Source: Nitrosopumilus oxyclinae
Lineage (GTDB): Archaea; Thermoproteota; Nitrososphaeria; Nitrososphaerales; Nitrosopumilaceae
Direction of reading: 5' to 3'
Assembly (NCBI RefSeq): GCF_013407165.1
Contig: NZ_CP026994.1
Location: forward strand, 558,001 to 622,000
DNA: 64,000 nt
Positions 14,340 to 43,353 of the stretch are shown piece by piece. Numbering within the stretch: position 1 is the first letter of the stretch; each line of letters begins with the position of its first letter. The notes beneath the pieces were generated by a model, which was not told where the DNA came from, searched no databases, and was given only the letters and a program-made list of their open reading frames with translations. Both the position numbers and the translations under genes were made by a program.

Positions 14340-16508
14340 ATGAAAGTTGCTTTAATTTACAATGAAAATAAGATAGATCCTAATGACGTAATCAATGTCT
14401 TTGGTATGACTACCAAAGAACACTATAGTTCAAAAGCAGTTGAGAGAGTTGCCCAATCCTTAGAAAAAGGCGGACACACTGTCAAGGTAATTGAAGGTGA
14501 TATTCACTTAAATGAAGAATTAAAAGAATTTATGCCAAAAGTGGTTGCAGGTGAAAATCCTGGCATGGTCTTTAACATGGCATATGGTATTCAAGGTCAG
14601 AACAGATACACTCACATTCCTGCAATGATGGAGATGCTTGGAATTCCATACATCGGTTCTGGTCCAGCAGGTCATGCCATTGTTCAAGATAAGGTGATGA
14701 CCAAAATAGTTTTGCAGAAAAATAAAATTCCTACTCCTGGATTCTGGGTGTTTAGAACTCCTGAAGACAAACATGATGACTTGATATTTCCTGTGATTGT
14801 AAAACCAAAACTAGAATCTACTTCTATGGGAATGGAAGTTGTAGATAATTGGGATGACTTGAGAGCTGCAGTTAAAGTTCAAATTGAAAAATTCCAACAA
14901 GATATTTTGGTAGAACAATTCATTTCAGGAAGAGAGTTTGCTGTGGGTTTGTTGGGAAATAAACCAAACATAGAAGTTTTACCAATCGTTGAAATTAATC
15001 TTGATCATCCTGATCAAATACAAACTATTACTGATAAAAAGAAAAAAGGTGGAGTTGAAAAAACATGTCCTGCAAAATTATCAAAAGAAAAAGAGGCTGA
15101 GATGAAACAAATGTGCATAGATGCATTTTCAGCTTTAGGATTAAATGATTATACTAGAGTGGACTTTCGAATGGATAAAGATGAGAATCTTTACATCCTT
15201 GAATTAAATTCAATGGCTAGTCTTGGAACTGGTGGTTCATTTTATCATGCTGGGAAAACTGCTGGATATACGTATGAATCTCTAGTGAATAAAATTTTAG
15301 ATGTTGCAGTAATTCGCTACTTTGGTTCTACTACTCAGCATAATGATGAAGAAGTGGATTTGACTCAACCTTTACGTGTTGTTGCAAGAACCTATCTGAG
15401 AAGTCATTTGCAGAGTCTAAAAGAGACTTTGAAAGATTATGTTAATCTCAATACACATGTATACAATATTGAAAATGTAAATCAATTAGGAACTAAATTA
15501 TCTAAACGATTATCTCATCTTGGATTTAGTGAACAAGTTTACAAACAATCTGATGTTGGAGACTTTCGTTATTTCAAAAATCACTCTGATTCTCACAATG
15601 ATGTATTATTCATATCTCATATGGATACTCATTATGGGCCAAATGATTTGATAACATATTCTGAAACTAGTGATAAGATCGTAGGCTCAGGTGTTGCTGA
15701 AAGTAAAGGTGGATTGGTAGTGATGTTAGGTGCATTACATGCACTAAGATTTTCAAAAAGACTCAAAAAAATAAAATGTGGTGTATTACTTACAACTGAT
15801 GATAGTTTGGGTGGACGACACAGTAGTAATTTGATTGAAGAGATTTCTAAAAATTCAAAATACATTCTTGGATTAAAATCAGGTAGTGTTGATGGTGGAA
15901 TTATTACAACTTGTTATGGTAGAAGTGATTATGAAGTTAGATTTACATCAACAGGTGATGAAGCTAATTCAAACATTCATGGAATCATACCTGTTTTGGC
16001 AAAAAAATTAGCTGCAATTGATAAGATCTCAAAAGATGAAAAGAATTATCGATTAAGTACAACTTCTGTTGTAGCTCAAGGCTCTCATGGACATACTCCA
16101 AATTATGCTACAATCTCACTAACATGTAGTTACAAAACAGAAAAACTTGGAGAATTATTAGATTCAAAAATTAAATCTGTGATGAAAAAACGAGAATCTA
16201 ATTCTAAAAAACTAGATGTCGCAGTAAATAAAATTCAAACACGACATCCTGTATTGGAAGAGCCTTCTGATACAAAATTCTACAAATTAGTAGAAGATTT
16301 GGCTAAAAAACATGAAATTAAAATTAAAAAACATGCCCAACTATTATCCTCTGACATTAGTAATGTGCCAGTTAGACTCCCTGCATTGGATGGATTTGGT
16401 CCATTAGGAAATCATTATCGTACATCTAAAGAATACATTATTCATGACAGTCTTATAGAGAGGGCAGCATTATTGGCATCTGTCGTCTTCAAGTGTGCTG
16501 CGAAATGA
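14340..16508 (+). CDS. ATP-grasp ligase fused to M20-type peptidase domain
   Basis: A 722-residue fusion. Residues 1 to about 340 form a D-Ala-D-Ala-ligase-like ATP-grasp: N-terminal lobe, VQDKVMTK, the FPVIVKPKLESTSMGM ATP-binding strand and loop, and the metal-binding end DYTRVDFRMD ... YILELNSMASLGTGG. Residues about 350-722 resemble M20/M28 zinc peptidases, with the ligand pair His427/Asp429 (SHMDTH). The bridging acid, normally Asp before KGG, is Glu454 (AESKGG), and the canonical DEE is Asp487-Asp488-Ser489, so metal binding and catalysis may be altered. A ligase and a hydrolase in one chain suggest making and trimming of a peptide-like compound. The stop overlaps the next start (ATGA). 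Confidence 0.75.
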   Translation: MKVALIYNENKIDPNDVINVFGMTTKEHYSSKAVERVAQSLEKGGHTVKVIEGDIHLNEELKEFMPKVVAGENPGMVFNMAYGIQGQNRYTHIPAMMEMLGIPYIGSGPAGHAIVQDKVMTKIVLQKNKIPTPGFWVFRTPEDKHDDLIFPVIVKPKLESTSMGMEVVDNWDDLRAAVKVQIEKFQQDILVEQFISGREFAVGLLGNKPNIEVLPIVEINLDHPDQIQTITDKKKKGGVEKTCPAKLSKEKEAEMKQMCIDAFSALGLNDYTRVDFRMDKDENLYILELNSMASLGTGGSFYHAGKTAGYTYESLVNKILDVAVIRYFGSTTQHNDEEVDLTQPLRVVARTYLRSHLQSLKETLKDYVNLNTHVYNIENVNQLGTKLSKRLSHLGFSEQVYKQSDVGDFRYFKNHSDSHNDVLFISHMDTHYGPNDLITYSETSDKIVGSGVAESKGGLVVMLGALHALRFSKRLKKIKCGVLLTTDDSLGGRHSSNLIEEISKNSKYILGLKSGSVDGGIITTCYGRSDYEVRFTSTGDEANSNIHGIIPVLAKKLAAIDKISKDEKNYRLSTTSVVAQGSHGHTPNYATISLTCSYKTEKLGELLDSKIKSVMKKRESNSKKLDVAVNKIQTRHPVLEEPSDTKFYKLVEDLAKKHEIKIKKHAQLLSSDISNVPVRLPALDGFGPLGNHYRTSKEYIIHDSLIERAALLASVVFKCAAK

Positions 16509-17761
16509 GTTTAGAATATCAATTAGCTGCACTTGCCGCATTAATTGGCCTTTCAGGATTTTTTAGTGGTTTAGAGGTAGCACTTGTAGGTACAAGTCAA
16601 GCCACAATTGAGAGATTGGTGAAAAATAAAACAAAAGGTGCAAAGGCTCTTCAAAAATTACATTCCAACCCTGGCTGGATGATGTCAAGTGTAAATCTTG
16701 GAAATAATTTAGTGAACATTGGCTCTGCATCCCTTGCAACAGTTGTTGCTATCGAAATTTTTGGTGATAATGGAATGGGAATTGCAGTTGGACTAATGAC
16801 ATTTTTAATTATTATTTTTGGTGAAGTAACTCCTAAAACATATTGTAATGCAAATGCAACTAAAGTCGCTTTAAGATGTAGTGGAATTTTATTAGCTTTT
16901 AGTTATGTGCTATACCCAGTTGTTTGGGTTCTTGAAAGAATTACTAGGGCAATAATCAAACTTACTGGCAGTGGATATAGACCACCTGCATTGACTGGTG
17001 AGGAGATTAAAGGTATTATTGATCAAGGTCACAGAGATGATGCACTAGAAACATCTGAAAGAGATATGGTTCATGGTGCATTGGACTTTAATGATAATGT
17101 GATAAGATCTGTAATGATGCCACGAACTAAGATGTTTACCTTACCTGGTGATATGGAATTGTTTGATGCAGCAGACACAATTCATCAAAGTGGACATTCT
17201 AGAATTCCAATTTATGGAAAAGATCGTGATGATATTATTGGCATTTTGCATGTTCGAGATTTACTAAAACATCTAAAAGATAGTGAACTGCAACACAAAA
17301 AAATTAGAGATTTTGTACGTGAACCAATTTACGTGTCACAAGAGAAGAAGATGACTACTCTGCTTAGGGAAATGCAAGCAAAAAATACCCACATGGCAAT
17401 AGTTGTTGATGAATTTGGAGGTGTAGAAGGAATTGTTACTTTGGAGGATCTCATTGAAGAGATTGTAGGTGAAATTAGAGATGAAACTGATTCTGATATT
17501 CAACTTTATGAGCGAATTGATGAGAATACCATAATCACAAATGGTGATGTTGAAATAGATGAAATCAACTTGGCTTTCAAAACAAATATTCCATACCCTG
17601 ATCATTATTCTACTTTAAACGGATTGTTACATGAACAACTCCATGATATACCCAAAGTTGGAGATGTTGTGAAAATTAGCTCTCTATCAATTAAAATCGA
17701 GCAAGTAGAAAAAAACAAACCTACGTCTATTAGAATTCAGCGAATTTTAGATGAGGTGTAA
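16505..17761 (+). CDS. CNNM/CorC-family membrane protein with CBS pair
   Basis: A protein of about 418 residues with the DUF21 membrane domain (3-4 hydrophobic segments, residues 1 to about 150), a pair of CBS domains (about 195-315, first one following [12 protein letters not shown]) and a C-terminal CorC/HlyC domain (about 335-415). CNNM/CorC proteins are linked to Mg2+ efflux or to regulation of cation transport, and bind adenine nucleotides at the CBS pair. The ATG at 16505 overlaps the upstream stop by 4 bp and gives a normal N-terminus ([13 protein letters not shown]); an upstream TTG-like start is unnecessary. The CorA-like gene follows after 5 bp, so this is likely one operon. Confidence 0.88.
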
Positions 17762-17766
17762 CTGAA

Positions 17767-19416
17767 TTGAGAGATAAAATTGGAATAATTACCAATAGAC
17801 TCGTCTATGGGTTTACTTTTGCATTTTTATATCAAATTGTAATTGGAATCGCAACATCACTACTTTCTTTACCGCTAACCGGAAATATTCAAGATCTAAT
17901 ATCTGGAGTTGAACAAATTGAATCTCAACAAGGTCCTTGGCTTGTAGGTTGGTGGATAATTTCAACAATAATTATCACTGCAATGGCATTGTTGATTATT
18001 CGATACAAAAAATTTCTTTCTCCATTCAAAGGTGAAAAAAATATTGATATTCCTCCAAAAATTACCGTTGTCACTGCAATAATTATTGGTGCGTGTATCT
18101 CTTTTCTATTCTTCCTACTTGACACCGTTATTGGTTTGATTGTACCTGCAGGTTCCCAGACTGATGTAAATGCAATATATCAATCTGCAATTATTGGGGA
18201 TTTCACACCACTATTGGTAAGTGTACTCTTTTCAATTATAGCTGGATTCATTATTGTTGGAGTTGCAAGTAAGACATCCAAAGTCAAAGAAATAACAAAT
18301 GATTTGGGATTGCAAGACATTGCTGGTATTATGGGTGGTATTGTAAACAAAACTAAAACTCAGAAAACAACACTATCTGATACAATCGGTCAACGTCCTG
18401 GGGCTTTAATCCACGTTGGAGAGCAAAAAGTAGACAAAGTAACTGTAAATTTAATTGAATACGATTCTGAAAGAATTAACGAAATTCCAAATGCGTCATT
18501 TGAAGAATGTTTGGAATCAAAAAACAAACCAAATGTTTCATGGGTGAATATAATTGGGGTACATGATCCCAATGTCATTAAAACTTTTGGAGATAATTTT
18601 GGAATTCATTCTCTCCATCAGTCAAACATTATGAATACTGAACTAAGACCATCCGTTGAAATATTTGATGATCATATTTTGATAATGTTGAAAATGCCTC
18701 ACTATGATACTCAAACGGGGAAATTGGATTTAGAACAAATATCAATCGTATTGGCTGAAAATCATCTTTTAACTTTTCAAGAAATTCAGGATGACTTTTT
18801 TGATGAGATTAGAAAACGATTACGAGAAAATTCTGGTAGTATTAGAAAACTAAAGACAGATTATCTTGCTTATTCTCTAATTGATGCAATCATTGATAGT
18901 TATTTCTTAGTATTAGAAAAGATTGGTGATCTTACAGAAGATTTAGAAGAAGACTTGATGCAAAATCCTACACCTGAAACAATGCAAACAATTCAGACTT
19001 TAAAACGCAGAATGATTGCATTAAGAAAAGCAATTTGGCCAGGACGAGAAATTATTAATTCATTGGAGCGAGATTCTACAGTTTTGGTATCTGATAACAC
19101 TAGAACGTATCTTCGTGACGTCTATAACCATACTATTCAGGTAACTGATTCCATTGAAGGACTGCGAGATGTGATTGGTGGTATGCTTGATACCTATCTA
19201 TCCAGTGTAAGTAATAGAATGAATGAGGTTATGAAGACTTTGACCATAGTTGCAGCAATTTTCATTCCTATCACGTTCATAGCTGGTCTCTATGGAACTA
19301 ATTTTTCATATGTGCCCGAATTAGAATGGGAGGGAAGTTATTTTGCTATGCTAATTGTAATGGGGATTATTTCTGGAGCGATGATTGCTTGGTTTAAGAA
19401 AAAGAGATGGCTTTAA
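17767..19416 (+). CDS. CorA-family Mg2+ transporter with extra N-terminal membrane domain
   Basis: A 549-residue protein with an N-terminal module of about four membrane segments (residues about 10-165), a soluble alpha/beta domain plus long helices (about 215-480) and the two C-terminal helices of CorA channels. The signature loop YGTNF corresponds to the family's YGMNF ion-selectivity loop. CorA proteins are pentameric Mg2+ channels; canonical members lack the N-terminal membrane module, so this is an unusual composite. TTG start, 5 bp after the CorC-like gene, suggests co-regulation of divalent-cation transport. Confidence 0.85.
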   Translation: MRDKIGIITNRLVYGFTFAFLYQIVIGIATSLLSLPLTGNIQDLISGVEQIESQQGPWLVGWWIISTIIITAMALLIIRYKKFLSPFKGEKNIDIPPKITVVTAIIIGACISFLFFLLDTVIGLIVPAGSQTDVNAIYQSAIIGDFTPLLVSVLFSIIAGFIIVGVASKTSKVKEITNDLGLQDIAGIMGGIVNKTKTQKTTLSDTIGQRPGALIHVGEQKVDKVTVNLIEYDSERINEIPNASFEECLESKNKPNVSWVNIIGVHDPNVIKTFGDNFGIHSLHQSNIMNTELRPSVEIFDDHILIMLKMPHYDTQTGKLDLEQISIVLAENHLLTFQEIQDDFFDEIRKRLRENSGSIRKLKTDYLAYSLIDAIIDSYFLVLEKIGDLTEDLEEDLMQNPTPETMQTIQTLKRRMIALRKAIWPGREIINSLERDSTVLVSDNTRTYLRDVYNHTIQVTDSIEGLRDVIGGMLDTYLSSVSNRMNEVMKTLTIVAAIFIPITFIAGLYGTNFSYVPELEWEGSYFAMLIVMGIISGAMIAWFKKKRWL

Positions 19417-19476
19417 TCTGAATTCCTGCACAAAAATCTTGATTCTTTTAATTTCTTTTCAACAAATTGAGGCTAA

Positions 19477-20283
19477 ATGATGACCAATAAAGCATTACAA
19501 AGAACATATGAAATCCTTGAAGGTACAACTAATGACAAAGTTACAAAGGCTTTTCAATTCTTCATTATTGCTTTAATCACTGTAAATGTTATTGTAGTTA
19601 TTATTGAAACAGAAGAATCTGTTTTAGATGAGTATGGTTATCTCTTTACTCCTTTTGAAATATTTTCAGTTGTAATTTTCACTGCAGAGTATATTGGAAG
19701 AATTATAGTTTGTAAACTAAATCCAAAATACCAAAATTCAAAATTTGGTGTACTTCGATTTGTATTTACTCCTATGATGTTAGTTGATTTGGCAGCAATA
19801 CTTCCATTTTTCTTACCGTTTGTAGTTACAGACACTCGCTTCATTAGAATAATTAGACTTTTGAGATTGTTTAGACTCTTCAAACTTGCAAGATACTCTG
19901 ATCCAATGCAAACTTTGGGGCAAGTATTCAAATCAAAGGCTGGTGATTTGGCAGTTGCATTTTTCATTTTATTTATTGTGTTGATATTTGCATCTAGTTT
20001 GATGTATCATGCAGAACATGAAGCACAACCTGCAGTTTTTTCTAGCATTCCTGCATCTATGTGGTGGGGAATAGTTACTCTAACAACAATAGGTTATGGT
20101 GATGTTTATCCAATTACTATACCTGGAAAATTAATTGCTGCAGGTGTTGCTGTCATTGGAATTGCCGTTTATGCAATTCCTACAGGAATTATGGCTTCTG
20201 CATTTACTGAAGAACTTAGAAAAAAGAAGGCATCAACTAACAATACATGCCCTCATTGTGGAAAGGATATATCCCATGATTAG
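19477..20283 (+). CDS. Voltage-sensor type potassium channel with C-terminal zinc knuckle
   Basis: A 268-residue six-helix channel subunit. Helices S1-S3 span about residues 28-115. S4 (about 121-139) has arginines and lysines every third or fourth residue (RFIRIIRLLRLFRLFKLAR). The pore helix leads to the filter TTIGYGD (203-209), the K+ signature. The C-terminus is short and ends in CPHCGKDISHD, a CxxC pair that could bind zinc or a redox signal within the tetramer. It would carry K+ flux across the membrane in response to voltage. It is part of the co-directional transport and peptide cluster; 16 bp before GGT. Confidence 0.9.
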   Translation: MMTNKALQRTYEILEGTTNDKVTKAFQFFIIALITVNVIVVIIETEESVLDEYGYLFTPFEIFSVVIFTAEYIGRIIVCKLNPKYQNSKFGVLRFVFTPMMLVDLAAILPFFLPFVVTDTRFIRIIRLLRLFRLFKLARYSDPMQTLGQVFKSKAGDLAVAFFILFIVLIFASSLMYHAEHEAQPAVFSSIPASMWWGIVTLTTIGYGDVYPITIPGKLIAAGVAVIGIAVYAIPTGIMASAFTEELRKKKASTNNTCPHCGKDISHD

Positions 20284-20299
20284 AGAAAGGTATCAGTAA

Positions 20300-21928
20300 A
20301 TGAACATTGAAAAAATAGAGAATTCCTTTAAACCCACTTCTGATAAAAAATGCTCTGTTGCCAAAAAAGGAATGGTCTCAACTGCGTTCCCTGATGCGAC
20401 AAAAGCTGGAGTTGAAATGCTCAAAAAAGGTGGAAATGCTGTAGATGCTGCTTGCGCATCTGCTCTAGCCTTGGGCGTGTGTGAACCTCAAGCTTCAGGA
20501 ATTGGTGGTCAATCTATGGCAATTGTACATGTAGATGGAAAATCAGTAGCTGTAGATGGCTCCAGTAGGGCCCCATCATTTGCACATATTTCTAATTTTG
20601 CAAGAAAATCTCATGGATTAATTGGATACAAGGCAACTACAGTTCCAAGTACTGTTGCAACTTTGGGATATCTAAATGAGAGATATGGTAGATTACCTTG
20701 GGATACTATTGTGAAACCTTCTGTTCGTATTGCAAAGAATGGATATAAAATTACTAAACTACAACATGAGTTACAAGAAAAACACCTTAAGAATTTTTTA
20801 AAAGTTCCATCAAAATCCGGAGCAAAATATTTCCTAAAAGATGGAGTAGTACCTTATGATGAAGGAGATCTTTTTGTTCAGGATGATTTAGCTAATACTT
20901 TAGAACAACTAGCAACATCTGGGTTTCGCTCATTTTATCATGGATTGATTGCAACATTGATTGATAAAGATATGAGACTTAATGACGGTTATCTACGACA
21001 AGAAGATCTTTCATTTATTCCACTACCAATTGAAAGAAAAGTAATTAGTAAAAGATATCGTGGAATTCGTGTGGAAACTGTACCTCCACCTGCAGCAGGT
21101 GCTACGATGTTGTTAGTATTAATGATGCTTAATAATCTCACAAAAAAATTCATAAACACTAGTTCTCCTCAATCATTTCACTTTGTTGCTGAATCTTTTC
21201 GTAAAGCATTATTGTATAGAGAACAACGTAAATTTAATCCAAGAACCTATCATCAAGTAAATGATAAAACTCATCTCAGTAGAAGTTTTGCAAAAACCCT
21301 TTCAAAGTCTATTCGAAATTCAGTTGATCCTGACCTTCCATTAAGAGATTCCATGGATACTGAAGACACTACGCATCTTTCAGTAATGGATAATGAAGGA
21401 AATGCTGTTGGCATAACTCAATCAATTGAATTAGTCTATGGCTCAAAAGCAGCTGCTGATGGATTAGGATTCTTGTATAACAATTACATGTCTGCATTTG
21501 AGCTTAAGAATGCAAATCATCCTTACTATTTACGACCAAATGCTATTCCTTGGACATCTGTATGTCCATCAATTTTATTTTATAATCATGAGCCCTGGAT
21601 TGTTATGGGAACTCCTGGCAGTGCACGTATCTTTTCAGTATTAAGCCAATTTGTTTCAAGAATTATTGATAGGGATAATTCTATAGATGTAGCAATGACA
21701 AAACCAAGACTACATTGTGGAGTGGATGGTACAATCAGTTTGGAAGATGACGTTTCAGGTGTTGAAATAATCAAACATCTCAAAAATATGGGTTACAAAA
21801 TAGACCTTAGGGAAAGATATTCGTTCTTTTTGGGCGCAATTCATGCTGTTATGAAATGTCAAACAGGTGAAGGATTTCAAGGAGTAGCAGAAGTTCGTCG
21901 TGATGGAATTGCGGAGGGATTGAATTGA
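20300..21928 (+). CDS. ggt: Gamma-glutamyltransferase-like Ntn hydrolase
   Basis: A 542-residue member of the GGT family. Autocleavage would expose Thr357 (in DTTHLSV), the N-terminal nucleophile of the small subunit, with the following GNAVGITQS segment typical. The large-subunit motif GGNAVDAACASALALGVCEP near the start and GTPGSARIF near the end support the assignment. There is no signal peptide, so it should act in the cytoplasm, unlike bacterial periplasmic GGT. It hydrolyses or transfers gamma-glutamyl groups of peptides, or acts on related acyl amides. Its stop overlaps the start of the N-formylglutamate amidohydrolase gene by 4 bp, which points to a shared pathway. Confidence 0.87.
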   Translation: MNIEKIENSFKPTSDKKCSVAKKGMVSTAFPDATKAGVEMLKKGGNAVDAACASALALGVCEPQASGIGGQSMAIVHVDGKSVAVDGSSRAPSFAHISNFARKSHGLIGYKATTVPSTVATLGYLNERYGRLPWDTIVKPSVRIAKNGYKITKLQHELQEKHLKNFLKVPSKSGAKYFLKDGVVPYDEGDLFVQDDLANTLEQLATSGFRSFYHGLIATLIDKDMRLNDGYLRQEDLSFIPLPIERKVISKRYRGIRVETVPPPAAGATMLLVLMMLNNLTKKFINTSSPQSFHFVAESFRKALLYREQRKFNPRTYHQVNDKTHLSRSFAKTLSKSIRNSVDPDLPLRDSMDTEDTTHLSVMDNEGNAVGITQSIELVYGSKAAADGLGFLYNNYMSAFELKNANHPYYLRPNAIPWTSVCPSILFYNHEPWIVMGTPGSARIFSVLSQFVSRIIDRDNSIDVAMTKPRLHCGVDGTISLEDDVSGVEIIKHLKNMGYKIDLRERYSFFLGAIHAVMKCQTGEGFQGVAEVRRDGIAEGLN

Positions 21929-22695
21929 CTAAACTACCTGTATTGTTATCCATACCTCATGGAGGAACTCGGAAACCTTCGGAACTTGACGGACATTTAT
22001 CCATTACAAACAAAGATCTGTTTGATGATTCTGATCCTTTTGTAATAGAACTCTATGATTTGGGGGATAAAGTTCAGCGTGTAATTAAAACTGATATTGC
22101 AAGACCCTTTGTAGATCTTAATCGCTCGTTACAAGACATGCCTCCAAATAATCCTGATGGGTTGATTAAGAGTAAGACATGCTATGATAAACCAATCTAT
22201 ACCAATGGAAAAGAACCTGACGATTCACTCAAAACAATGCTTATTGAAATGTATTACAATCCATATCATCAAGCAATTCAAAAAAGTATTACTGAATTAG
22301 ATTTGAAATTATGTTTGGACTGTCATTCAATGGCTGCTACTGCTCCTTATTTTTCACCAGATAAAACACAATCAAAAAGACCTTTGTTTTGTATTTCTAA
22401 TGATGATGGAAAAACAGCTTCTCAGGAAATGATGGAATTATTAGCTGATTCTATATCTAAATCATATTTTATTGATAGAGATGAAATATCCATAAATGAT
22501 CCATTTCATGGTGGTCACATTACAAAAACATATGGGAATAAACCTCTTCCCTGGATTCAAGTTGAGATGAATAGATCATTATATTTGTCATCTCCATGGT
22601 TTGATGAAGATGCACTTACTGTGGATGTTAATCACCTTCAAAAATTAAATAAGCAATTTGAAAATTCACTTGATTATTTCTTTTCAAAAATCTAA
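21925..22695 (+). CDS. N-formylglutamate amidohydrolase family protein
   Basis: A 256-residue zinc amidohydrolase of the FGase family. It begins LLSIPHGG, where the His is a usual metal ligand, contains DLNRS, and has LCLDCHSM with the second histidine. Family members deformylate N-formylglutamate in histidine breakdown, but no hut genes are nearby, so the substrate may be another N-acyl or gamma-glutamyl compound. TTG start overlaps the GGT stop, indicating coupled translation. It is the last gene of the 14.3-22.7 kb cluster. Confidence 0.85.
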   Translation: MTKLPVLLSIPHGGTRKPSELDGHLSITNKDLFDDSDPFVIELYDLGDKVQRVIKTDIARPFVDLNRSLQDMPPNNPDGLIKSKTCYDKPIYTNGKEPDDSLKTMLIEMYYNPYHQAIQKSITELDLKLCLDCHSMAATAPYFSPDKTQSKRPLFCISNDDGKTASQEMMELLADSISKSYFIDRDEISINDPFHGGHITKTYGNKPLPWIQVEMNRSLYLSSPWFDEDALTVDVNHLQKLNKQFENSLDYFFSKI

Positions 22696-27584: not shown

Positions 27585-28403
27585 TTGGCTGATAAGTCTG
27601 CTCAAGATATTGCAAAAAAAGGTGTCAAGAATTTACTTTCCCCAAAAACACCTAGTATTGTAGATATGCTAATGGGGAGAGGAACTGAAACAATTGTTGA
27701 TTCTGAAACTCTTGCTGAAGAAGTTCAAAAACGTGTATCTCAATCACTAAAAGGTAATTCTACTTATTCTACTGTTACTGAAGAATCTGAACAGTTTTTG
27801 AGAAAAAGAGTGTTACAAAGTATGCCTATGGCAATATTGTTTATTGATTTAGTTGGTTCAACATCAATGATCTTAAATTTACCAAAGGAAAAACTTGCAA
27901 CCATTTTCACTACTTTCTCTCAAGAGATGGCATATGTGATTAAACGCCATGATGGATTTGTATTGAAATTTGTAGGTGATGCAGTAATTGGTTACTTTGT
28001 TGCCGAAGAATTATCTGTATCTGTTGCAAGTCGGGCAGTTACATGTGCAGAATCGATGCTTAAAATAATCAAAGTTGGAATTAATCCAATTCTAAAAAAT
28101 AATGATTTACCTGAATTGAATGTAAAAATTGGAATTGATTTTGGAGAGAACACTATTGTAAGATATGGTGATGACTTGCAAGAAGCACATGTTGATATTT
28201 TAGGCGCTTCAGTTAGCATGGCAGCTAAAATTCAGAACTTGGCTGAAACTGATCAAATATTGGTAGGATATGATATTTATGAAAAAATACATCCTTCAAT
28301 TCAAGAATATTTTGTACATTTGGATTTGGATAAATCTCAATGGAAATACAAATCTGCAAAAACTGGAAAAATCTATCCAGTTTATGCCTATATCGGAAAA
28401 TAA
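27585..28403 (+). CDS. Class III nucleotide cyclase-domain protein (soluble)
   Basis: A 272-residue protein: an N-terminal region of about 75 residues without a known domain, then a class III adenylate/guanylate cyclase catalytic domain. The two metal-binding aspartates are D88 (FIDLVGST) and D132 (KFVGDAV), and a base-specifying Lys (K128) is present, as in adenylate cyclases. The transition-state Asn is Ser here (ASVSMAAK) and the Arg is Lys, so activity may be weak. It is a paralogue of 42056-42856, which keeps the Asn. TTG start. No phosphodiesterase is adjacent to this copy. Confidence 0.82.
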   Translation: MADKSAQDIAKKGVKNLLSPKTPSIVDMLMGRGTETIVDSETLAEEVQKRVSQSLKGNSTYSTVTEESEQFLRKRVLQSMPMAILFIDLVGSTSMILNLPKEKLATIFTTFSQEMAYVIKRHDGFVLKFVGDAVIGYFVAEELSVSVASRAVTCAESMLKIIKVGINPILKNNDLPELNVKIGIDFGENTIVRYGDDLQEAHVDILGASVSMAAKIQNLAETDQILVGYDIYEKIHPSIQEYFVHLDLDKSQWKYKSAKTGKIYPVYAYIGK

Positions 28404-30910: not shown

Positions 30911-33900
30911 ATGATAACTACTAAACCTCTCTCTGCAATTGTTTTGTCTCTTCTAATTCTTACTGGCAGTATGTCATTAGGAGGTTTTTCTAATGTTGAA
31001 GCTCAAACATCTAACCTTTTTGTTTCTGCAGATAGTTCTGTGTTTAATAACAAAATTTCAGGCCCTCAAGTTGTTCAAGTCGTTATTCGTGATCAAAACA
31101 TCAGTAATACTGGTGAAGGAAAGGGTGAACCTGATGTAACAGTAAATGGAAAAGATTTGCGTATGGTTCAATCTACTGATGGAAATTGGTATGGTTATTT
31201 CTCTGACAGAAAACAGGCTCAAATAGCTGATAGTACAGTTGGTCTAACTGGTAAAGGACTTGACTTTGGTACATTTTGTTCACGGAATACTTCAATTTTG
31301 GGCGTATCTGTTTCAGAAACTGATGGAATTGCAATTCCTATCAATGGGGCTACTGTCGGTGGAGAAAACGGCAAAAATCCACCAAATCAAATATCTCAAG
31401 ATTGTTCATTGAGTTTACCATATTCTAAAAAAACGATTAATGTTGTAAGACAAGCAAAAGAGATGAATCCTGGAAATACTAAAGTAAATCTTGGACAAAT
31501 TGGCATCTCATCAAAAGATCTTTGGCCTTTTATCCAACTGTATGATTTTTCTAAAGGTAGTAATGTTATAGTCCAATACAATAAAGGAGGAGGGGCTCAA
31601 CAAACAACTCTAACGTTTGATTCTGCAGAAAAATCAATCACACATGAGTTAGACAGAACTTCTTATCCTAGATCATCTGATGTTAATTTAAAAATTAAGG
31701 ATCTTTCTTTAAACATTGATCCTACCTCTGTTGATTCTTGGTCATTTGGAACTTCTCCAACTAGTCCTTCTACTTTCTACATGCTATATGGAGAGTCTGG
31801 AAATTCAAACTCTGATGGAACTGCAGGTGCTGTAAATCTTATTCCAAATCTTACTTCTATGATGTTCAAAGACAATGGCATTCTTAAGATAAATCCAAAT
31901 GTCCAAGGACAATCAAATGTACTTACAATCAAAGATAACAGTCATTCTCAAACAAATGGTAATGGCGAAATAGATATTTCATTAATTTCTTCTAGTGCAG
32001 GCTCTATTGCAGCTGGCAAACAACCTGTAACGATTACTGAAACATCTCCAAACAGTGGAATCTTTACAACCTATGACCCAAATAATGATTCTGTTATAAT
32101 CACAACACAAAATGCTCAAAGAGGAACATCTGCTTCTATCGAATATAATAAAAAACCATTAACTCTTCTCATAGGATTTGGAAAAGCTAGTTTATCCCTT
32201 GATGAACAACTCAAAGGAACTGAGTGGAATTCAGGTGAAGAAATGCCGGTAATACTAATTGACTCTGATGCAAATAAAAATAATTTAGCAAAAGAAGACC
32301 TTGATCTTTTCAATCCTTCATACAAAGCAATTCCTGCATTAAGTACTGGAAATCCATATACTTTGGGGGAGAGCGGTACTGAAGCAAACAGTAAGGTTTC
32401 TGCATCCTTTTTAGATGGATTTGTTTTAAATCCCACCACTCCTGGATTATTCACTCTTTCAGGTACTAATTTAGGCACGACATCCACTGTAATGGTTGAA
32501 AAATTCAGCGATAGGGCAAGAATTGATCCTGTGAATAATTCTGATTCAGATGCTCTAGTTATTGATCTTAAAACAAATCTGAACAAACTTTATGCTTCAA
32601 TAAATAATCCATTTGATTCTACATCCAATTTTAGAGGGGTAAACATGTTTAATTTTGATTTACGTTCTCTTAACAACACTATCAATAATTTTGATATTTA
32701 CTTGCTAGTTGGAACGGGTTCTTCTCCTATTCTTGATTCTTCGGGAAACCCAACACCCAACATAACTGCAATTAAAATTGCATCTGATACATCTTTACAA
32801 AATCTAATTAATTTGAATTCTAATTTACAAGTAGCAGATCCTCAACTACTTCATTCTAATTTATTTTCAAGTTCATTTTCAGGAAATGAGCAAATAGGAT
32901 TAATGTTTTCATATTCAAAAATTCAAAAGATGGGAACCGAAACAAGACCTATTGTAGCTGACTTTTTCTCTTATGGGTTGATAAAAGATGGAAAACTAAA
33001 AACTGAAAGAATTGCAAATCAAATTGTCCGTGTAGAGGTAGAAGAATTATCTACAAATTCTGGAAAGTTTAGAGGAAGTCTTGAATATATCATGTTGAAT
33101 CAATTAAATATTTTTGATCCAAAAACATATGAAAAAATAATTCCAATTGATGATGAACCAATATTTCTAATGATTGATGAGCTAAAGGGAAATGATTCTC
33201 CAAGAATCAGTTATAATGACTTGGGTACTGATGGAGTCTTTACTGCAATTTCAGACCAACAAGAGGTTCTAGCTCACATGGGGCTTGTTGTGCTTTCTGT
33301 AAAAACATTCAAGCCTGGTGATACAGTAGGAGTCACTTTATCTGATAAAGATCTTAATACTAATTCTGATTTAATTGAAATCTATACCGTAGTAGATCCT
33401 TCAAAGTATCCAAATGATCCTGCAGTTGATACAGTAGGTCTTCCAAATTTAGGATTGACTGCTGACAATCAACCATATGGACGATTGTTGGCAATCACAT
33501 TTGATGATGAAACTTGGTTAAAATCATCTGTTTCTAAAAATGGAAAATCTTGCTCTCCTATTTCTGGAAGTGACGGATTGGCCTCAACTGGATTTACCTT
33601 AGTTGAAACTGGAGCAAAGACTGGTGAGTTTACTGGAAATTTTAAAATCCCCTCCCAATATTGTTCAAGAAATAGTGGTGGTACCATCAAGGTAACCACT
33701 GGAGTGGATATTGGTGCACGATATTATGACTTTAGAGGACTATCAAGTCAAGCTGCAATTACTAGTGCAAGTGCTGCAGTTGGTGCAACAAGTGGAAGTG
33801 TTCAACTTGATAGGACCAGTTATCCTGTTCCAGTAGGTTCTGTTGCTGACTTTTTTAATTCAGGAAAATCTACTTCTGATAGGCCAAACAGTTTATCGAT

Positions 33901-36025
33901 TTTCCCATTTCACTTGACTGCAATTACCAAAAATGGTGATCTTAAAGTAATTGATTCAGGCGAAGAGATTGGACCTAAAGACACAGTACTGTACGTTCGA
34001 ATCAATGACAATGACTATAATTTATCTCCAAATGGAGAAGACACAATCTCCCAAAATATTCCAGGAACTTCTAATGGACCAGTCAAAGTAATTGTAACAA
34101 GGGGAAGCTCTAGTTTACTGTTGGCCACAGCTGGTGGTGAGGATGCAAATTCTGGAGTGATTACAACTGGAAAGACTACAAAAAGTGGTGTTACTCGTGA
34201 ACTTGGACCTATAACTGAAACTTCTCCTAGTTCTGGTCTTTTCCAATTTAGTTTACCAATTAGATACGTTGATGGACCTTCATCCCTCAAATGTCCTGTT
34301 ACTCCTGATTCTGGATTTACAAAGTTGGACAAAACAAAATCTGGGGTTTTATCCAGATTTGATGTGTCTCCACCTACAGGCAATTACTGTATCTTGCAAG
34401 GAGATGTGATTACAGTAGAATACTCTGATCAAACAGATGCATCGGGTTCTCAGAGAACTGTAACCGGTTCAGCAGCATTCGATCTTAGAATAGGCTCATT
34501 GCAATCTGATACCACTTCTTATGTTATTGGACGTGACGCAATAATTACATTAGTTGATCCTGATCTAAATTTTGATTCCAAAAAAGCAGAAACACACTCA
34601 CTTGATATTTTAGAATGGAATTCAGGTAATGTAAAGACTACAATGGGAAAGATGGGTGGCGCTGCTACAAAGAATGGACTAGTATTTGACTCACAACCCT
34701 TTGGATTGCGTGAAACTGGTGATTCTACTGGAATTTTCCAAACTGTTATTAAAATTCCATCTGAAATAAATGGAAAATCACTTGATAGGGGTGAGTCAAT
34801 TAAACTTACATACACTGATTGGGGAACCGCCGGCTCTGATTTTGTAGGAAAGAATGATCAAAAAATAGAAGCAAAATTTTTCACATCCAACTTTCAATCT
34901 TCAATCTCTTTAGATAAGAGAATCTATACCTGGACTGACAAAGTCTATGTTACAATTGTAGCTCCTGATCATAATTTTAATTCAAATAAAGTAGATGAGA
35001 TTGGTTCAAAATCTACAAATGAAATAAAAATTTCAAGTCGTGCAAACAAACTCACTCAATACAAACTTGTTGAAACTGGTGGTGATACTGGAATTTTTAC
35101 TGGAGAAGTAATACTAACTGGATTCAAACATGACGCTGATGGAAATTCAAGAACAGGAGACATTGATGGATTTGATACAAATCCTAGAACTCAACCAAAA
35201 ACTGGCGGAGGTCCAACAAACGGTTTCTTGGAAACTAAAAATGATGATGGACTTACTGTATCATTTCAATTCACAGACCGAGAAACATCTACTGCATCTG
35301 CATTGATTAGATGGAACATTGGAGATATTGAATGGGTTCAAGGTGCTTCATCTGCCAACGGAAATGGAATTATCAGAGTAGTTGATCCTGACATGAATCT
35401 CAATCCTGAAACTGTAAACACCTTTTTGATTGATGTGTGGTCTGATTCTGATCTTGGTGGAATTGATGTAACTGTAACTGAAACAGGCCCTGCCACAGGC
35501 ATCTTTGAAGGCTCTGTCACATTTTCTTCACGAGACCAATCATCTGGTCATAAATTACGAGTAAATGAAGGTGACTATGTTACTGCAAAATATGAAGACA
35601 ACACTTTACCAAAACCTTATTCGAGAACAGATGAACTTAAAATTACATCTAGTACTACTGTAGGTCCTGTAGTTCCTCCTATGGAGCGTGCACCTGTATC
35701 GAATCCGCGCGTTGTTGATTCTTTTGGAAATTCTATTAGTTTGATAAATGTGGATAATCAAGTTCAAATTTCTGCAAGTATAATTAACAATAATGTTGGA
35801 ACTCAACCATTTACTTATTTGGTCCAGATTCAGGATTCCTCAAATGCTGTAAATTCATTGTCTTGGATTACAGGAACTCTCTCAAAAGGACAAATACTGT
35901 CCCCCTCTGTATCTTGGATACCTGATGCTCCTGGAAAATATATTGCGACAATCTTTGTTTGGGATAATCTGAAAAACCCTGCAGCAATAAGTCCAACTGT
36001 TGATTTTGAAATCAATGTTTCATGA
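30911..36025 (+). CDS. Major S-layer protein (SlaA/Slp1-like)
   Basis: A 1704-residue exported protein, close in size to the known S-layer proteins of Nitrosopumilus. Signal peptide is 1 to about 32 (ends VEAQ). The mature protein is rich in Asp, Asn, Ser and Thr and has few cysteines. It is built of Ig-like repeats that share an ETG-x-x-TGIF end (at least six copies, about 32035-35510) and acidic loops such as DPDLNFDS, DNDYNLSP and DPDMNLNP, likely Ca2+ or other cation sites. Another repeated start is LDRTSYP or LDKRIYT. No C-terminal membrane anchor is seen, so anchoring may need a partner. The charged lattice has been proposed to concentrate ammonium at the cell surface. Confidence 0.85.
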   Translation: MITTKPLSAIVLSLLILTGSMSLGGFSNVEAQTSNLFVSADSSVFNNKISGPQVVQVVIRDQNISNTGEGKGEPDVTVNGKDLRMVQSTDGNWYGYFSDRKQAQIADSTVGLTGKGLDFGTFCSRNTSILGVSVSETDGIAIPINGATVGGENGKNPPNQISQDCSLSLPYSKKTINVVRQAKEMNPGNTKVNLGQIGISSKDLWPFIQLYDFSKGSNVIVQYNKGGGAQQTTLTFDSAEKSITHELDRTSYPRSSDVNLKIKDLSLNIDPTSVDSWSFGTSPTSPSTFYMLYGESGNSNSDGTAGAVNLIPNLTSMMFKDNGILKINPNVQGQSNVLTIKDNSHSQTNGNGEIDISLISSSAGSIAAGKQPVTITETSPNSGIFTTYDPNNDSVIITTQNAQRGTSASIEYNKKPLTLLIGFGKASLSLDEQLKGTEWNSGEEMPVILIDSDANKNNLAKEDLDLFNPSYKAIPALSTGNPYTLGESGTEANSKVSASFLDGFVLNPTTPGLFTLSGTNLGTTSTVMVEKFSDRARIDPVNNSDSDALVIDLKTNLNKLYASINNPFDSTSNFRGVNMFNFDLRSLNNTINNFDIYLLVGTGSSPILDSSGNPTPNITAIKIASDTSLQNLINLNSNLQVADPQLLHSNLFSSSFSGNEQIGLMFSYSKIQKMGTETRPIVADFFSYGLIKDGKLKTERIANQIVRVEVEELSTNSGKFRGSLEYIMLNQLNIFDPKTYEKIIPIDDEPIFLMIDELKGNDSPRISYNDLGTDGVFTAISDQQEVLAHMGLVVLSVKTFKPGDTVGVTLSDKDLNTNSDLIEIYTVVDPSKYPNDPAVDTVGLPNLGLTADNQPYGRLLAITFDDETWLKSSVSKNGKSCSPISGSDGLASTGFTLVETGAKTGEFTGNFKIPSQYCSRNSGGTIKVTTGVDIGARYYDFRGLSSQAAITSASAAVGATSGSVQLDRTSYPVPVGSVADFFNSGKSTSDRPNSLSIFPFHLTAITKNGDLKVIDSGEEIGPKDTVLYVRINDNDYNLSPNGEDTISQNIPGTSNGPVKVIVTRGSSSLLLATAGGEDANSGVITTGKTTKSGVTRELGPITETSPSSGLFQFSLPIRYVDGPSSLKCPVTPDSGFTKLDKTKSGVLSRFDVSPPTGNYCILQGDVITVEYSDQTDASGSQRTVTGSAAFDLRIGSLQSDTTSYVIGRDAIITLVDPDLNFDSKKAETHSLDILEWNSGNVKTTMGKMGGAATKNGLVFDSQPFGLRETGDSTGIFQTVIKIPSEINGKSLDRGESIKLTYTDWGTAGSDFVGKNDQKIEAKFFTSNFQSSISLDKRIYTWTDKVYVTIVAPDHNFNSNKVDEIGSKSTNEIKISSRANKLTQYKLVETGGDTGIFTGEVILTGFKHDADGNSRTGDIDGFDTNPRTQPKTGGGPTNGFLETKNDDGLTVSFQFTDRETSTASALIRWNIGDIEWVQGASSANGNGIIRVVDPDMNLNPETVNTFLIDVWSDSDLGGIDVTVTETGPATGIFEGSVTFSSRDQSSGHKLRVNEGDYVTAKYEDNTLPKPYSRTDELKITSSTTVGPVVPPMERAPVSNPRVVDSFGNSISLINVDNQVQISASIINNNVGTQPFTYLVQIQDSSNAVNSLSWITGTLSKGQILSPSVSWIPDAPGKYIATIFVWDNLKNPAAISPTVDFEINVS

Positions 36026-38609: not shown

Positions 38610-39506
38610 TTAATTTTGATCTATTTTTAGAAAACCTCTGCTTGATTTCCATATTGCATCCTCTTCTGTAAATTGCTTGTTGCATTTTAAACAAATAAAA
38701 TCACATCCAATTTCTGTAAATTTATTCTCACATGTATTACAAACATAATGATTTTTAATTTTTCTATAATCTACTCCTATCGCATTTAATTCTTTTTTAC
38801 AGTTTGGACATTTGTCATTAATAAAAGCAGTCTCTTCTTCGATATTTCCACATGGATAATGTTCGATTAAATCAATTTGATTAAAATCTGATTTTTTACA
38901 TTGTGGACAATGAAAGAGATGTCCTGTTTTAATTGAATTACAATGTGGACAAAATACCTCTTTGATGTCATCAATTTGTTTTATTTTTTTATCTGAAATC
39001 CATTTTTCAGTATACTTTCCAAGTTCCTCTATACTAATATCTAATTTATCTGATAACCATGCCTCGCTTAGTCTATTGGATGTTTTTAGTAATTCTGTAA
39101 TGTCTTCCTTATTGGAGGTTGAATCATTTTCTAATTCTAAAATTGCTAGCACGTTTCTTAACATGTCTAATCTTATCGGTTTTGAAAGAATTTCATATGC
39201 TCCTTCGTTGATTAATTTTGAAATTACATCTGAGTCTTTTTCTAATGCAGTCATGATGATGATTTCTCCATCGGTATCTAATTCTAACAATCTACTGAGA
39301 ATCGATATCCCTGAACTGTCTTTAATATCATAATCCATGAATACTATTGGATGAATTCCATCCACTGCTAATTCTTGAAATTTTTTTAATCCTGCATCCG
39401 CATTATTTTCTAAATAATTTTCATTTTGTCCAAGTTTTTCTAAAAATTCTTTAATTCGTATTAAAATACTTTCAGAATCATCAATAACTAAAATCGGTCT
39501 TGCCAT
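38610..39506 (-). CDS. Response regulator with TackOD1 zinc output domain
   Basis: A 298-residue protein. REC domain is residues 1 to about 120: acidic pair D9/D10, likely phospho-acceptor D58 (VFMDYD), Thr in IIMTA and Lys in LSKPI. A helical linker (about 125-180) follows. The C-terminal part (about 185-298) has five CxxC-type pairs (CPHC, CPQC, CPNC, CNTC, CLKC) plus HYPCG and GVDYRKI, which fit the thaumarchaeal output domain TackOD1, a zinc-binding domain. It is a phosphorylation-controlled regulator whose output target is unknown. No histidine kinase is adjacent; it is divergent from the secreted protein gene at 39642. Confidence 0.8.
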   Translation of the reverse strand: MARPILVIDDSESILIRIKEFLEKLGQNENYLENNADAGLKKFQELAVDGIHPIVFMDYDIKDSSGISILSRLLELDTDGEIIIMTALEKDSDVISKLINEGAYEILSKPIRLDMLRNVLAILELENDSTSNKEDITELLKTSNRLSEAWLSDKLDISIEELGKYTEKWISDKKIKQIDDIKEVFCPHCNSIKTGHLFHCPQCKKSDFNQIDLIEHYPCGNIEEETAFINDKCPNCKKELNAIGVDYRKIKNHYVCNTCENKFTEIGCDFICLKCNKQFTEEDAIWKSSRGFLKIDQN

Positions 39507-40722: not shown

Positions 40723-42042
40723 TCAAAGAGTGACTCTATAGTAATCTAATCTTTCAGGGTTTAACTTTTGAACAAATTCTATCTTATCTTCACGATTGAT
40801 TCTATTTTGAATCACTTCGCGTAATTGCAATCCGGTCAAATAAGCATATTTTCTTTTTTTAGTTTCTTTTCTAAACAATTCCCGCATGTCTGGTCCTCCG
40901 CTATGTCCCCAATATCCTGCCTTGATGGCCAAAGGTTCTAAGAAAATTGTATTTTGTTTTCCATAATTTTCGTCATTAATTTTATTTGAGAGTGAATATC
41001 TCTCAAGAGGTCCACCTTTTGCAAATCCTATTACCTCTCCAGATTCAGTTCCCAATCGTAGTGTAACTAGAATAGTTTCAGGGTCCTCTAAGGATTCAAA
41101 GAAAGTGCCTTTTTTGAATTGCAAAGGATCTGGCAACTCATCAAATATGTCAAAGAGCATTTCTGCAAATCTACGATCAGAAATCTTCTTCTCTATGACT
41201 GGAATTAATTGCAGTTCTCCATTTGAAATTGATTTCTTTATTTCTAATTCTTTTTCTCGTAACTTGATAAAACTTGAATAGTTTTCTTGAAATCTGTGTT
41301 GCATTGATTTTGGTAAAGATTTCAAAACTTTACTACTCATTTCATTTTCTTCATTTAGTAATGTCTCAAAATATGTTATACTGCGCTGTACTATTTGCTC
41401 AGGTTCCCATCCTAGTGAATGAGAATTCTTCTTTGCCAACTCCATCGCATCCAAAAAATCTCCTAAAGCATATGCCCCTATTCTATCTGTAATTGACAAA
41501 AACCATCCTAAATTAGAATAATGATTTTGTTTTTGTTTTTCCTTGGAATATTTTGATTTTGTATAATGTTTAGCAATCATAGGTTCTATTTCCTTTTGTT
41601 TTATTTTCCAAGGATGAGATGTACGTAGAATCAATGCTGCAACTAAATTAACATCTACATCTATTTTCTTCAATAAATTTTGAAGTTTAGGATCTGATGT
41701 TACAAAATTGGATGCCACAATCTCTTCTGGTTTGTCTTCTGTTTTGTCAGGTTCATAATCATGGAATAATGCAGCAACAAATAGATGCTTAAAATCATCT
41801 TGTGAAATTATTTTTTTAAATTCTTCACCACGAGCTGCTAGTAGTGTATTATGAACCACAACAAGATTGTGACTAATATTGTGGTATCCATAGTAATCTT
41901 TGTTTAGATTTTGTTTATTAAAATCATCCAAGCTGTAATGCATTATTTCTAAATATATCGAGTCATCTAAATTCTCATTTTTTAATAAATCCATTATGAT
42001 GTCTTGTAGTTCTGCAATGGATGGAATTTTGGTACTGGACAA
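40723..42042 (-). CDS. HD-domain phosphohydrolase fused to GNAT-like domain
   Basis: A 439-residue protein. N-terminal HD domain (about 30-230) has His54/His58 (YHNISHN) and His94-Asp95 (ALFHDYE), with a later Asp (SITDRIGAYALGD), a metal site of the kind found in HD phosphohydrolases and cyclic-nucleotide phosphodiesterases. The C-terminal part (about 320-439) resembles an acetyltransferase fold: EVIGFAKGGPLE, a conserved GYWGHSGGPDMRELF acyl-CoA-like loop, and a final helix and strand. It starts 13 bp after the stop of the class III cyclase, so it may degrade that cyclase's product. GNAT assignment is tentative. Confidence 0.65.
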   Translation of the reverse strand: MSSTKIPSIAELQDIIMDLLKNENLDDSIYLEIMHYSLDDFNKQNLNKDYYGYHNISHNLVVVHNTLLAARGEEFKKIISQDDFKHLFVAALFHDYEPDKTEDKPEEIVASNFVTSDPKLQNLLKKIDVDVNLVAALILRTSHPWKIKQKEIEPMIAKHYTKSKYSKEKQKQNHYSNLGWFLSITDRIGAYALGDFLDAMELAKKNSHSLGWEPEQIVQRSITYFETLLNEENEMSSKVLKSLPKSMQHRFQENYSSFIKLREKELEIKKSISNGELQLIPVIEKKISDRRFAEMLFDIFDELPDPLQFKKGTFFESLEDPETILVTLRLGTESGEVIGFAKGGPLERYSLSNKINDENYGKQNTIFLEPLAIKAGYWGHSGGPDMRELFRKETKKRKYAYLTGLQLREVIQNRINREDKIEFVQKLNPERLDYYRVTL

Positions 42043-42055
42043 TACTTGATGTACT

Positions 42056-42856
42056 CTATTTTCCTATATAGGCATAGACTGGATAGATATGTCCAGTAAT
42101 TTTATTTGTATAATTCCATTCATCGTTATCCCATTGCATTTTTTCAAAATATTCTTGAATGGGTGGGGATAATTTTGCATACACATCTCCACCAATCAAT
42201 ATTTGATCCGCATGAGCACGTCCTTGAATTTTTGCAGCAATATTCATTGATTGACCTAAAAGATCAATGTGGGATTCTTTTTCATTATTACCATAACGAA
42301 TTATTGTGTTTTCCCCGTAATCGAGACCAATCTTTATTTTTAAATCAGGATAATCATATTGTTTTAAAATTGGATTTATGCCCATTTCGAGTACTTTGAT
42401 CATTGATTCTGCACAACTCACAGCACTATCTTGATCATTTTCACTAAAATAACCAATAACCGCATCTCCAACAAATTTTAGAATGTATCCTCCATGGCGT
42501 TGAATCACATAAGCCATCTCTTGAGCAAAAGAACTAACTATTGCTGTTAGTTGCTTTTGGGGAAGATCTAAAATCATCTGTGTTGAACCAACAAGATCAA
42601 CATACATTACAATCATGGGAATGCGTGAAAATACATTCTCTCTTAGATAGTTATCTGAATTATTCGTCACATCAGAGTATTGGAAATCTTGATGTAATGC
42701 ACCGTATACTCTTTTTTGAACTTCTTTAATGTGTTCATCAAAATCCACAATGTGGGATTTTTTTTCTTCAGTGATGATGTCTAGAATATTTTTATTTTGA
42801 GAAAGAATATTCTCTATGCCTTTTTTTGCTATTTCTTTATTGGAATTATCTTTCAT
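42056..42856 (-). CDS. Class III nucleotide cyclase-domain protein (soluble)
   Basis: A 266-residue paralogue of 27585-28403, with the same length N-terminal region and a cyclase domain. Metal aspartates are D87 (YVDLVGST) and D131 (KFVGDAV); base-recognition Lys is K127; the transition-state Asn is kept (SMNIAAK) while the Arg is Lys. No membrane segment. It sits between a 147-residue helical protein and the HD/GNAT gene, all on the minus strand with 13- and 53-bp gaps, pointing to an operon. Product is probably cAMP, but cGMP cannot be excluded. Confidence 0.82.
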   Translation of the reverse strand: MKDNSNKEIAKKGIENILSQNKNILDIITEEKKSHIVDFDEHIKEVQKRVYGALHQDFQYSDVTNNSDNYLRENVFSRIPMIVMYVDLVGSTQMILDLPQKQLTAIVSSFAQEMAYVIQRHGGYILKFVGDAVIGYFSENDQDSAVSCAESMIKVLEMGINPILKQYDYPDLKIKIGLDYGENTIIRYGNNEKESHIDLLGQSMNIAAKIQGRAHADQILIGGDVYAKLSPPIQEYFEKMQWDNDEWNYTNKITGHIYPVYAYIGK

Positions 42857-42909
42857 TGTATACTATGGTTATGCATTCTTTTAAGATATTTGAACTATGT
42901 GGAGTTTTT

Positions 42910-43353
42910 TCATTCTTTATTTTTATTCGATGACTCATTAATCTTAGACAAAGTCTTTGCATATGATTCCATCATGGTATGGATAAAACTATCAAAAGAC
43001 TTTACTGCAGAAACTCTCATTTTAAAATATTCATCCCAATATTTTGTGTTCATATCTATTAGATTCAAATAACTTTTCTTTATTGATTCTGAATTTTCTT
43101 TGATCTGTTTCAATATTTTAGGATCGATGTTTAGTTTATCAAAAAACTCCTTTTCAGAAATATAACACGTTCCAAACATGTCATCAAACAAATGAAGATA
43201 TTGAGTATACAGATTTGAATTATTTTGAAATATTGATGGTGCTTGAGCCTCTAATTTTTTAATTATTTCTGAAGTGTCTGTTTTTAGCACATCGCACAAT
43301 GATATTGGTTCGTCTTCTTTAGTTTCATTGTTTTGAATGGGCTCTTCTACCAT
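42910..43353 (-). CDS. Helical protein (147 aa) upstream of cyclase
   Basis: A soluble, mostly alpha-helical acidic-start protein. The N-terminal 35 residues are acidic and probably disordered. The C-terminal helix (WDEYFKMRVSAVKSFDSFI ... YAKTLSKINES) is long and amphipathic, similar in character to phasin-like or PhaE-type helices, but without enough signature to name it. First gene of the putative cyclase operon. It could be a regulator or partner of the cyclase. Confidence 0.45.
   Translation of the reverse strand: MVEEPIQNNETKEDEPISLCDVLKTDTSEIIKKLEAQAPSIFQNNSNLYTQYLHLFDDMFGTCYISEKEFFDKLNIDPKILKQIKENSESIKKSYLNLIDMNTKYWDEYFKMRVSAVKSFDSFIHTMMESYAKTLSKINESSNKNKE

Follow-up and report, generated by a model that had tools for sequence, protein, structure and literature searches.

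The cyclase/HD-GNAT locus

This analysis concerns two adjoining genes, one for a class III nucleotide cyclase and one for a protein joining an HD domain to a GNAT-like domain (HD-GNAT), in the ammonia-oxidising archaeon Nitrosopumilus oxyclinae (contig NZ_CP026994.1). The 64,000-nucleotide stretch analysed, positions 558,001 to 622,000 of that contig, is referred to as the window. The original prediction had placed a self-contained signalling unit here, with synthesis and hydrolysis of a cyclic nucleotide encoded in one operon together with a possible acetyltransferase output. Both open reading frames and the gap between them lie at the coordinates claimed, on the minus strand (Table 1), and the observation of an HD protein beside a cyclase is real and not a chance motif. 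The HD domain is built like a class I cyclic-nucleotide phosphodiesterase (PDE), and ammonia-oxidising archaea have a core system with separately encoded cyclases and HD-GNAT, of which the window protein is an accessory version that turns up at differing loci.

Table 1. Features of the cyclase/HD-GNAT locus (window positions)
Feature	Positions	Strand	Details and evidence
HD-GNAT protein	40723-42042	minus	439 amino acids, TTG start
Linker and GNAT-like domain, HD-GNAT residues 273-439	40726-41226	minus	E369, WGxxGG (378-383), D433-Y434, R436; family alignment, GNAT folds, Pfam
PDE-like HD domain, HD-GNAT residues 1-272	41227-42042	minus	H54, H58, H94-D95, D186; invariant residues, structure model, fold matches
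Spacer between cyclase and HD-GNAT, 13 bp	42043-42055	minus	
Class III nucleotide cyclase	42056-42856	minus	266 amino acids, ATG start; Pfam, 38-sequence alignment, PDB relatives CyaB, CyaC and BcPycC
Gene for helical phasin-like protein, upstream of the cyclase	42910-43353	minus	147 amino acids; no Pfam match above cut-off

Domain identity and catalytic residues

The cyclase matches the Pfam Guanylate_cyc model at 46.3 bits (cut-off 21.9, E 4.7e-12), and both metal-binding aspartates, predicted to be intact, are kept in all 38 aligned relatives (D87 and D131). Its best PDB matches are the bacterial class III adenylate cyclases CyaC and CyaB, with which it has the metal Asp pair and the KFVGD motif in common. 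Unlike them it has Lys for Arg at the transition-state position and is short and soluble, with an N-terminal region of its own and no recognised sensor domain. The base-selecting residues K127 and D198 are invariant in the 38-sequence alignment and, in a comparison with CyaC, stand opposite its Lys and Thr. A Lys/Asp base-selecting pair in class III cyclases is of the ATP type. Because the pair is of this type, the residues point to ATP as the most likely substrate and cyclic AMP (cAMP) as the most likely product. The transition-state residue N205 is also present; in the clade of a second cyclase of the same family, encoded at 27585-28403 on the plus strand and 53% identical to the first, this position is Ser.

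In the HD domain, the predicted metal site was numbered exactly: H54, H58 and H94-D95, counted from the TTG start, are invariant in 60 of 60 relatives. Position 186, where the last metal ligand is expected, is D or E among the same relatives. An AlphaFold model of the HD domain alone (predicted local distance difference test, pLDDT, 90.6; predicted template modelling score 0.90) was compared with the PDB using Foldseek, and all 50 of the matches listed were class I cyclic-nucleotide PDEs (TM-score by query 0.45-0.64). The full-length model (pLDDT 86.6) matches both GNAT acetyltransferases and PDE catalytic domains. A profile built from 23 family members likewise retrieved only PDE2/PDE5-type chains from the PDB, through the YHNxxH and HD motifs; a profile search of the PDB with the single window HD protein gave no match. 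Alignment to PDE5 places the YHNxxH motif, the HD pair and the later Asp of class I PDEs in the HD domain. The predicted fold is thus that of the class I PDEs (PDE1-11, RhoPDE, TcrPDEC1), and the YHNxxH and HD motifs are equally spaced in both. The invariant columns of the HD-domain alignment include no Gln, and a counterpart of the purine-binding Gln of class I PDEs was not located in that alignment. A grouping of the HD domain with unrelated nucleotidases, the outcome named as damaging to the original prediction, did not occur; fold and sequence motif side with cyclic-nucleotide PDEs.

The GNAT-like C-terminus that had been proposed is supported by Pfam Acetyltransf_1 matches in 12 of 23 HD-GNAT relatives (best E 1.1e-5) and by Foldseek matches to GNAT structures at probability 1.00 (target TM-score 0.5-0.65). 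In the family alignment the residues given in Table 1 are invariant, and the sequence closes with a DYYR end. The WGxxGG loop differs from the canonical acyl-CoA pyrophosphate loop, [QR]xxGx[GA]; together with E369 and the DYYR end, it would fit an acyl-CoA-dependent transferase, the roles of the individual residues being putative. The nearest architectural analogues are the mycobacterial type III cAMP-dependent GNATs Rv0998 and MSMEG_5458, in which a cAMP-binding domain precedes a GNAT domain (PMC8556138). HD-GNAT has the same order: a domain of cyclic-nucleotide type at the N-terminus, then a GNAT domain whose candidate catalytic residue is a Glu. It differs in that its N-terminus is a PDE-like HD domain and not a cyclic-nucleotide-binding (CNB) domain, and its control by a cyclic nucleotide is putative.

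Distribution of the family and linkage to the cyclase

Of 170 good genomes from the class, 131 encode a protein of the two-domain HD-GNAT family. The family is near-universal in the lineage, with a core copy in most ammonia-oxidising archaea. A scan of 84,980 named species genomes recovered 272 relatives; the 80 of these that were listed are thaumarchaeal or unspecified archaeal, save two contigs of a single metagenome-assembled genome labelled Neomarinimicrobiota, which are presumably misbinned. Across 300 genomes of the phylum, matches to the HD-domain profile were confined to the order to which the window belongs. Viral carriage was rejected, as viral contigs contained no HD-GNAT relative and cyclase relatives at only 24-27% identity.

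The window genome has two HD-GNAT copies. The tree groups the window copy with five others in an accessory clade that has full support; among the 95 genus genomes surveyed, six carry a member of this clade. A further HD-GNAT paralogue clade (L074, L077, L078 and L079) has a conserved divergent neighbour of 268 amino acids, CBS-like by eye.

Class III cyclases of Thaumarchaeota are already known from annotation (PMC9289680), and among the cyclases predicted in archaea, class III is reported to be rare (PMC8646023). Up to 16 class III matches per genome were found in the lineage. The window genome encodes five above the cut-off, and with these and its second HD-GNAT the pair does not amount to a self-contained unit. 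The core gene of the cyclase family occupies one conserved locus, next to threonine-dehydratase-like and purE/purK-like genes (named by eye from sequence).

The pairing itself is variable. In three of the six genomes with an accessory HD-GNAT (the window genome, G059 and G119) the gene immediately upstream, on the same strand, encodes a cyclase; in the others (G056, G061 and G212) no cyclase occupies that position. In G059 the spacer is likewise 13 bp and the flanks resemble those in the window. Near core HD-GNAT genes a cyclase was found in none of about 80 loci, with flanks examined to 8 kb per side. The difference in adjacency (3/6 accessory against 0/79 core loci) has p 2e-4, from a small sample whose members are not phylogenetically independent; random same-strand adjacency in three of six genomes would have a probability of about 4e-8 under a crude independence model. 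In the family-wide neighbourhood set, a cyclase was inside the region covered in four cases, none of them adjoining the HD gene. The survey of related genomes that had been proposed therefore bears out the pair for half of the accessory copies and for no core copy. Of the claim of one operon, the adjacency, common strand and short gap stand, and the two genes may be co-transcribed here; a fixed operon is rejected by the survey.

The paired cyclases come from two clades, that of G059 belonging with the cyclase at 27585-28403, which leaves two origins of the pairing or a replacement of one cyclase by another. A recombinant cyclase in G059 was considered and rejected: a sliding comparison placed it with the second-cyclase clade over most of the sequence and showed no mosaic pattern. 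A comparable coupling is known from CAPE, a fusion of a class III cyclase to a class I PDE found in streptophytes and some stramenopiles (PMC8115329). Here, in contrast, the two are separate proteins that adjoin only in some genomes, and a GNAT domain is added.

The interval 40723-43353 also includes a third same-strand gene, which the original prediction did not describe and which encodes the phasin-like protein of Table 1. Its membership of the cyclase/HD-GNAT module is uncertain. Homologues adjoin the HD paralogue in G056 and phaC/phaE-like genes in Nitrosotalea; the window genome's own phaC is at G000:C1:637024. Elsewhere in the window, a response regulator carrying the thaumarchaeal output domain TackOD1 is encoded at 38610-39506 (minus strand), a 1704-residue open reading frame without a Pfam match at E 0.01 lies at 30911-36025 (plus strand), and a cluster of CNNM, CorA, ion channel and gamma-glutamyltranspeptidase genes spans 14340-22695 (plus strand). 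In G056, G093 and G178, relatives of this cluster lie close to cyclase or HD paralogues, and cluster, cyclases and HD paralogues apparently occupy a common variable region.

A possible cyclic-nucleotide pathway and its alternatives

The reading that we tentatively favour, with somewhat less than even confidence, is a cyclic-nucleotide module in which the cyclase makes the nucleotide and HD-GNAT serves as its hydrolase or receptor, with an acetyltransferase output. The cyclase would form a 3',5'-cyclic nucleotide, most likely cAMP. HD-GNAT would bind it in the PDE-like HD domain and would probably hydrolyse it at the H54/H58/H94-D95/D186 metal site. Binding or hydrolysis would be coupled to the C-terminal GNAT domain, which would acetylate a protein or a small molecule. 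HD-GNAT would then be both signal terminator and output, like the mycobacterial cAMP-gated acetyltransferases, a PDE-like fold replacing the CNB domain.

Several observations count against such a module. The class I PDE signature HDxxHx[AG]xx[NQ] is broken in the family, which has HDxDP or HDxEP instead; the window copy reads HDYEPDKTED, and P98, the Pro that stands for His, is invariant in all 60 relatives. Because of the broken HDxxH signature, the HD domain is built like a class I PDE yet is not a member of the class, and is termed PDE-like. It differs from the class I PDEs further in its GNAT fusion, its archaeal host and its score of 20.4 bits on the Pfam PDEase_I model, below the cut-off of 24.8. 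None of 120 class genomes contains a PDEase_I match over the cut-off, and the model was rejected as sole evidence because it is non-specific, a protein of another HD family reaching 21.1 bits. At E 0.017-0.095, the family-profile matches to PDE chains are weak. E59 and E61, nearly invariant in the core family, are lost in the window copy. In the cyclase, Lys (K209) stands for the transition-state Arg, as it does in all 38 relatives; Lys is also found at the aligned position of the Pycsar cyclases BcPycC and EaPycC, so Arg is not absolutely required for cyclisation. The lack of a cyclase near core HD-GNAT genes belongs on the same side. On the other side, all 133 HD-GNAT genomes in the class sample also carry a cyclase (lists compared by hand), a co-occurrence that speaks for the module but is confounded by common descent.

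It is possible, if doubtful, that the HD domain hydrolyses a different phosphoester, such as a 2',3'-cyclic nucleotide or a nucleotide or cofactor derivative, with a housekeeping role in core HD-GNAT, and that the cyclase is a neighbour by chance or through a common variable region. The core gene is conserved by vertical descent and has no cyclase near it, an adjoining cyclase is missing from half of the accessory copies, and several genomes have cyclases and the HD paralogue together in a variable neighbourhood; the broken HDxxH signature would agree as well. Against this, the fold and the YHNxxH motif favour cyclic-nucleotide PDEs over nucleotidases, the HD gene is paired with two different cyclase clades, and chance adjacency in three of six genomes has the very low probability given above.

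An HD domain that acts as receptor only, binding the cyclic nucleotide without meaningful turnover and controlling the GNAT domain allosterically, is unlikely. None of the core metal ligands varies in 60 members, nor does the presumed acid His, and such conservation goes beyond the needs of binding, although the altered HDxxH motif and a second fusion, of a PDE-like HD domain to a methyltransferase-like output (described below), would both suit a receptor.

A Pycsar-like antiviral system, in which cyclic UMP or cyclic CMP is made on infection and HD-GNAT is effector or off-switch, is very improbable and was rejected as the main identity of the pair. The PADLOC PycC models give the window cyclase 103.6 bits, where the Pfam cyclase model gives 46, the Lys at the transition-state Arg position is common to BcPycC and EaPycC, and the accessory pair is patchily distributed. 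However, the core gene of the cyclase family, a stable housekeeping-type gene at its one purE/purK-like locus, scores higher still on PycC (115 bits). The window cyclase has ATP-type base residues, and the specificity residues D94 and R97 of BcPycC (PMC11224242) correspond to V129 and A132. No Pycsar effector match was found in HD-GNAT, the 147-residue neighbour or the antiporter at 43553. The genome's PycC-PycTM pair is located elsewhere and serves as an internal positive control. At L187:6582-7804 (G000:C1, about 892581-893803, outside the window), a PycC gene and a PycTM effector gene overlap by 4 bases; the latter matches Pfam PycTM above the cut-off, and a Cas1-like gene lies nearby. In this ammonia oxidiser, the pair is probably a Pycsar system for defence. 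The 'pycsar_unknown' genes of a published Nitrosarchaeum genome (PMC12097351) perhaps reflect the same over-calling as the PycC matches of the window cyclase's family.

Beyond the pair, a cyclic-nucleotide module would bear on how the signal is received in this group. The Pfam cNMP-binding domain PF00027 was found in none of 60 genus genomes, while 11 of 14 control genomes were positive, and another kind of receptor is therefore needed. In genome family f3, all nine cyclase genomes without HD-GNAT carry another PDE-like HD protein, with a methyltransferase-like domain attached, an association that is suggestive but likewise confounded by common descent. These proteins of about 800 amino acids, such as L209:346-2718, combine a PDE-like HD domain with a Methyltransf_4-like domain and, judged by eye, have N-terminal membrane helices; they occur in 24 of the f3 genomes matched, all nine HD-GNAT-less cyclase carriers included. 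Their interpretation as cyclase-PDE fusions in Nitrososphaeraceae-like genomes was rejected when the methyltransferase-like domain was found instead.

A wider and more speculative proposal, which we regard as unlikely in full, is that ammonia-oxidising archaea signal through cyclic nucleotides without any CNB receptor. An archaeal relative of the eukaryotic class I PDEs, joined to an acetyltransferase or, in the case of Nitrososphaeraceae-like genomes, a methyltransferase-like domain, would sense the signal, destroy it and write the response in the form of a covalent modification. No literature description of a PDE-like HD-GNAT or of its pairing with a cyclase was found, which is weak evidence of absence as most subscription journals lay outside the search; HD-GNAT may belong to a signalling pathway not yet described in archaea. 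In ammonia oxidisers, which rank among the most abundant groups of microbes, it offers a concrete candidate for both receptor and hydrolase, and it and the cyclase are two small proteins with no recognised membrane domain that are directly testable. Since the solved folds nearest to this prokaryotic domain are those of eukaryotic class I PDEs, it also bears on the origin of those enzymes.
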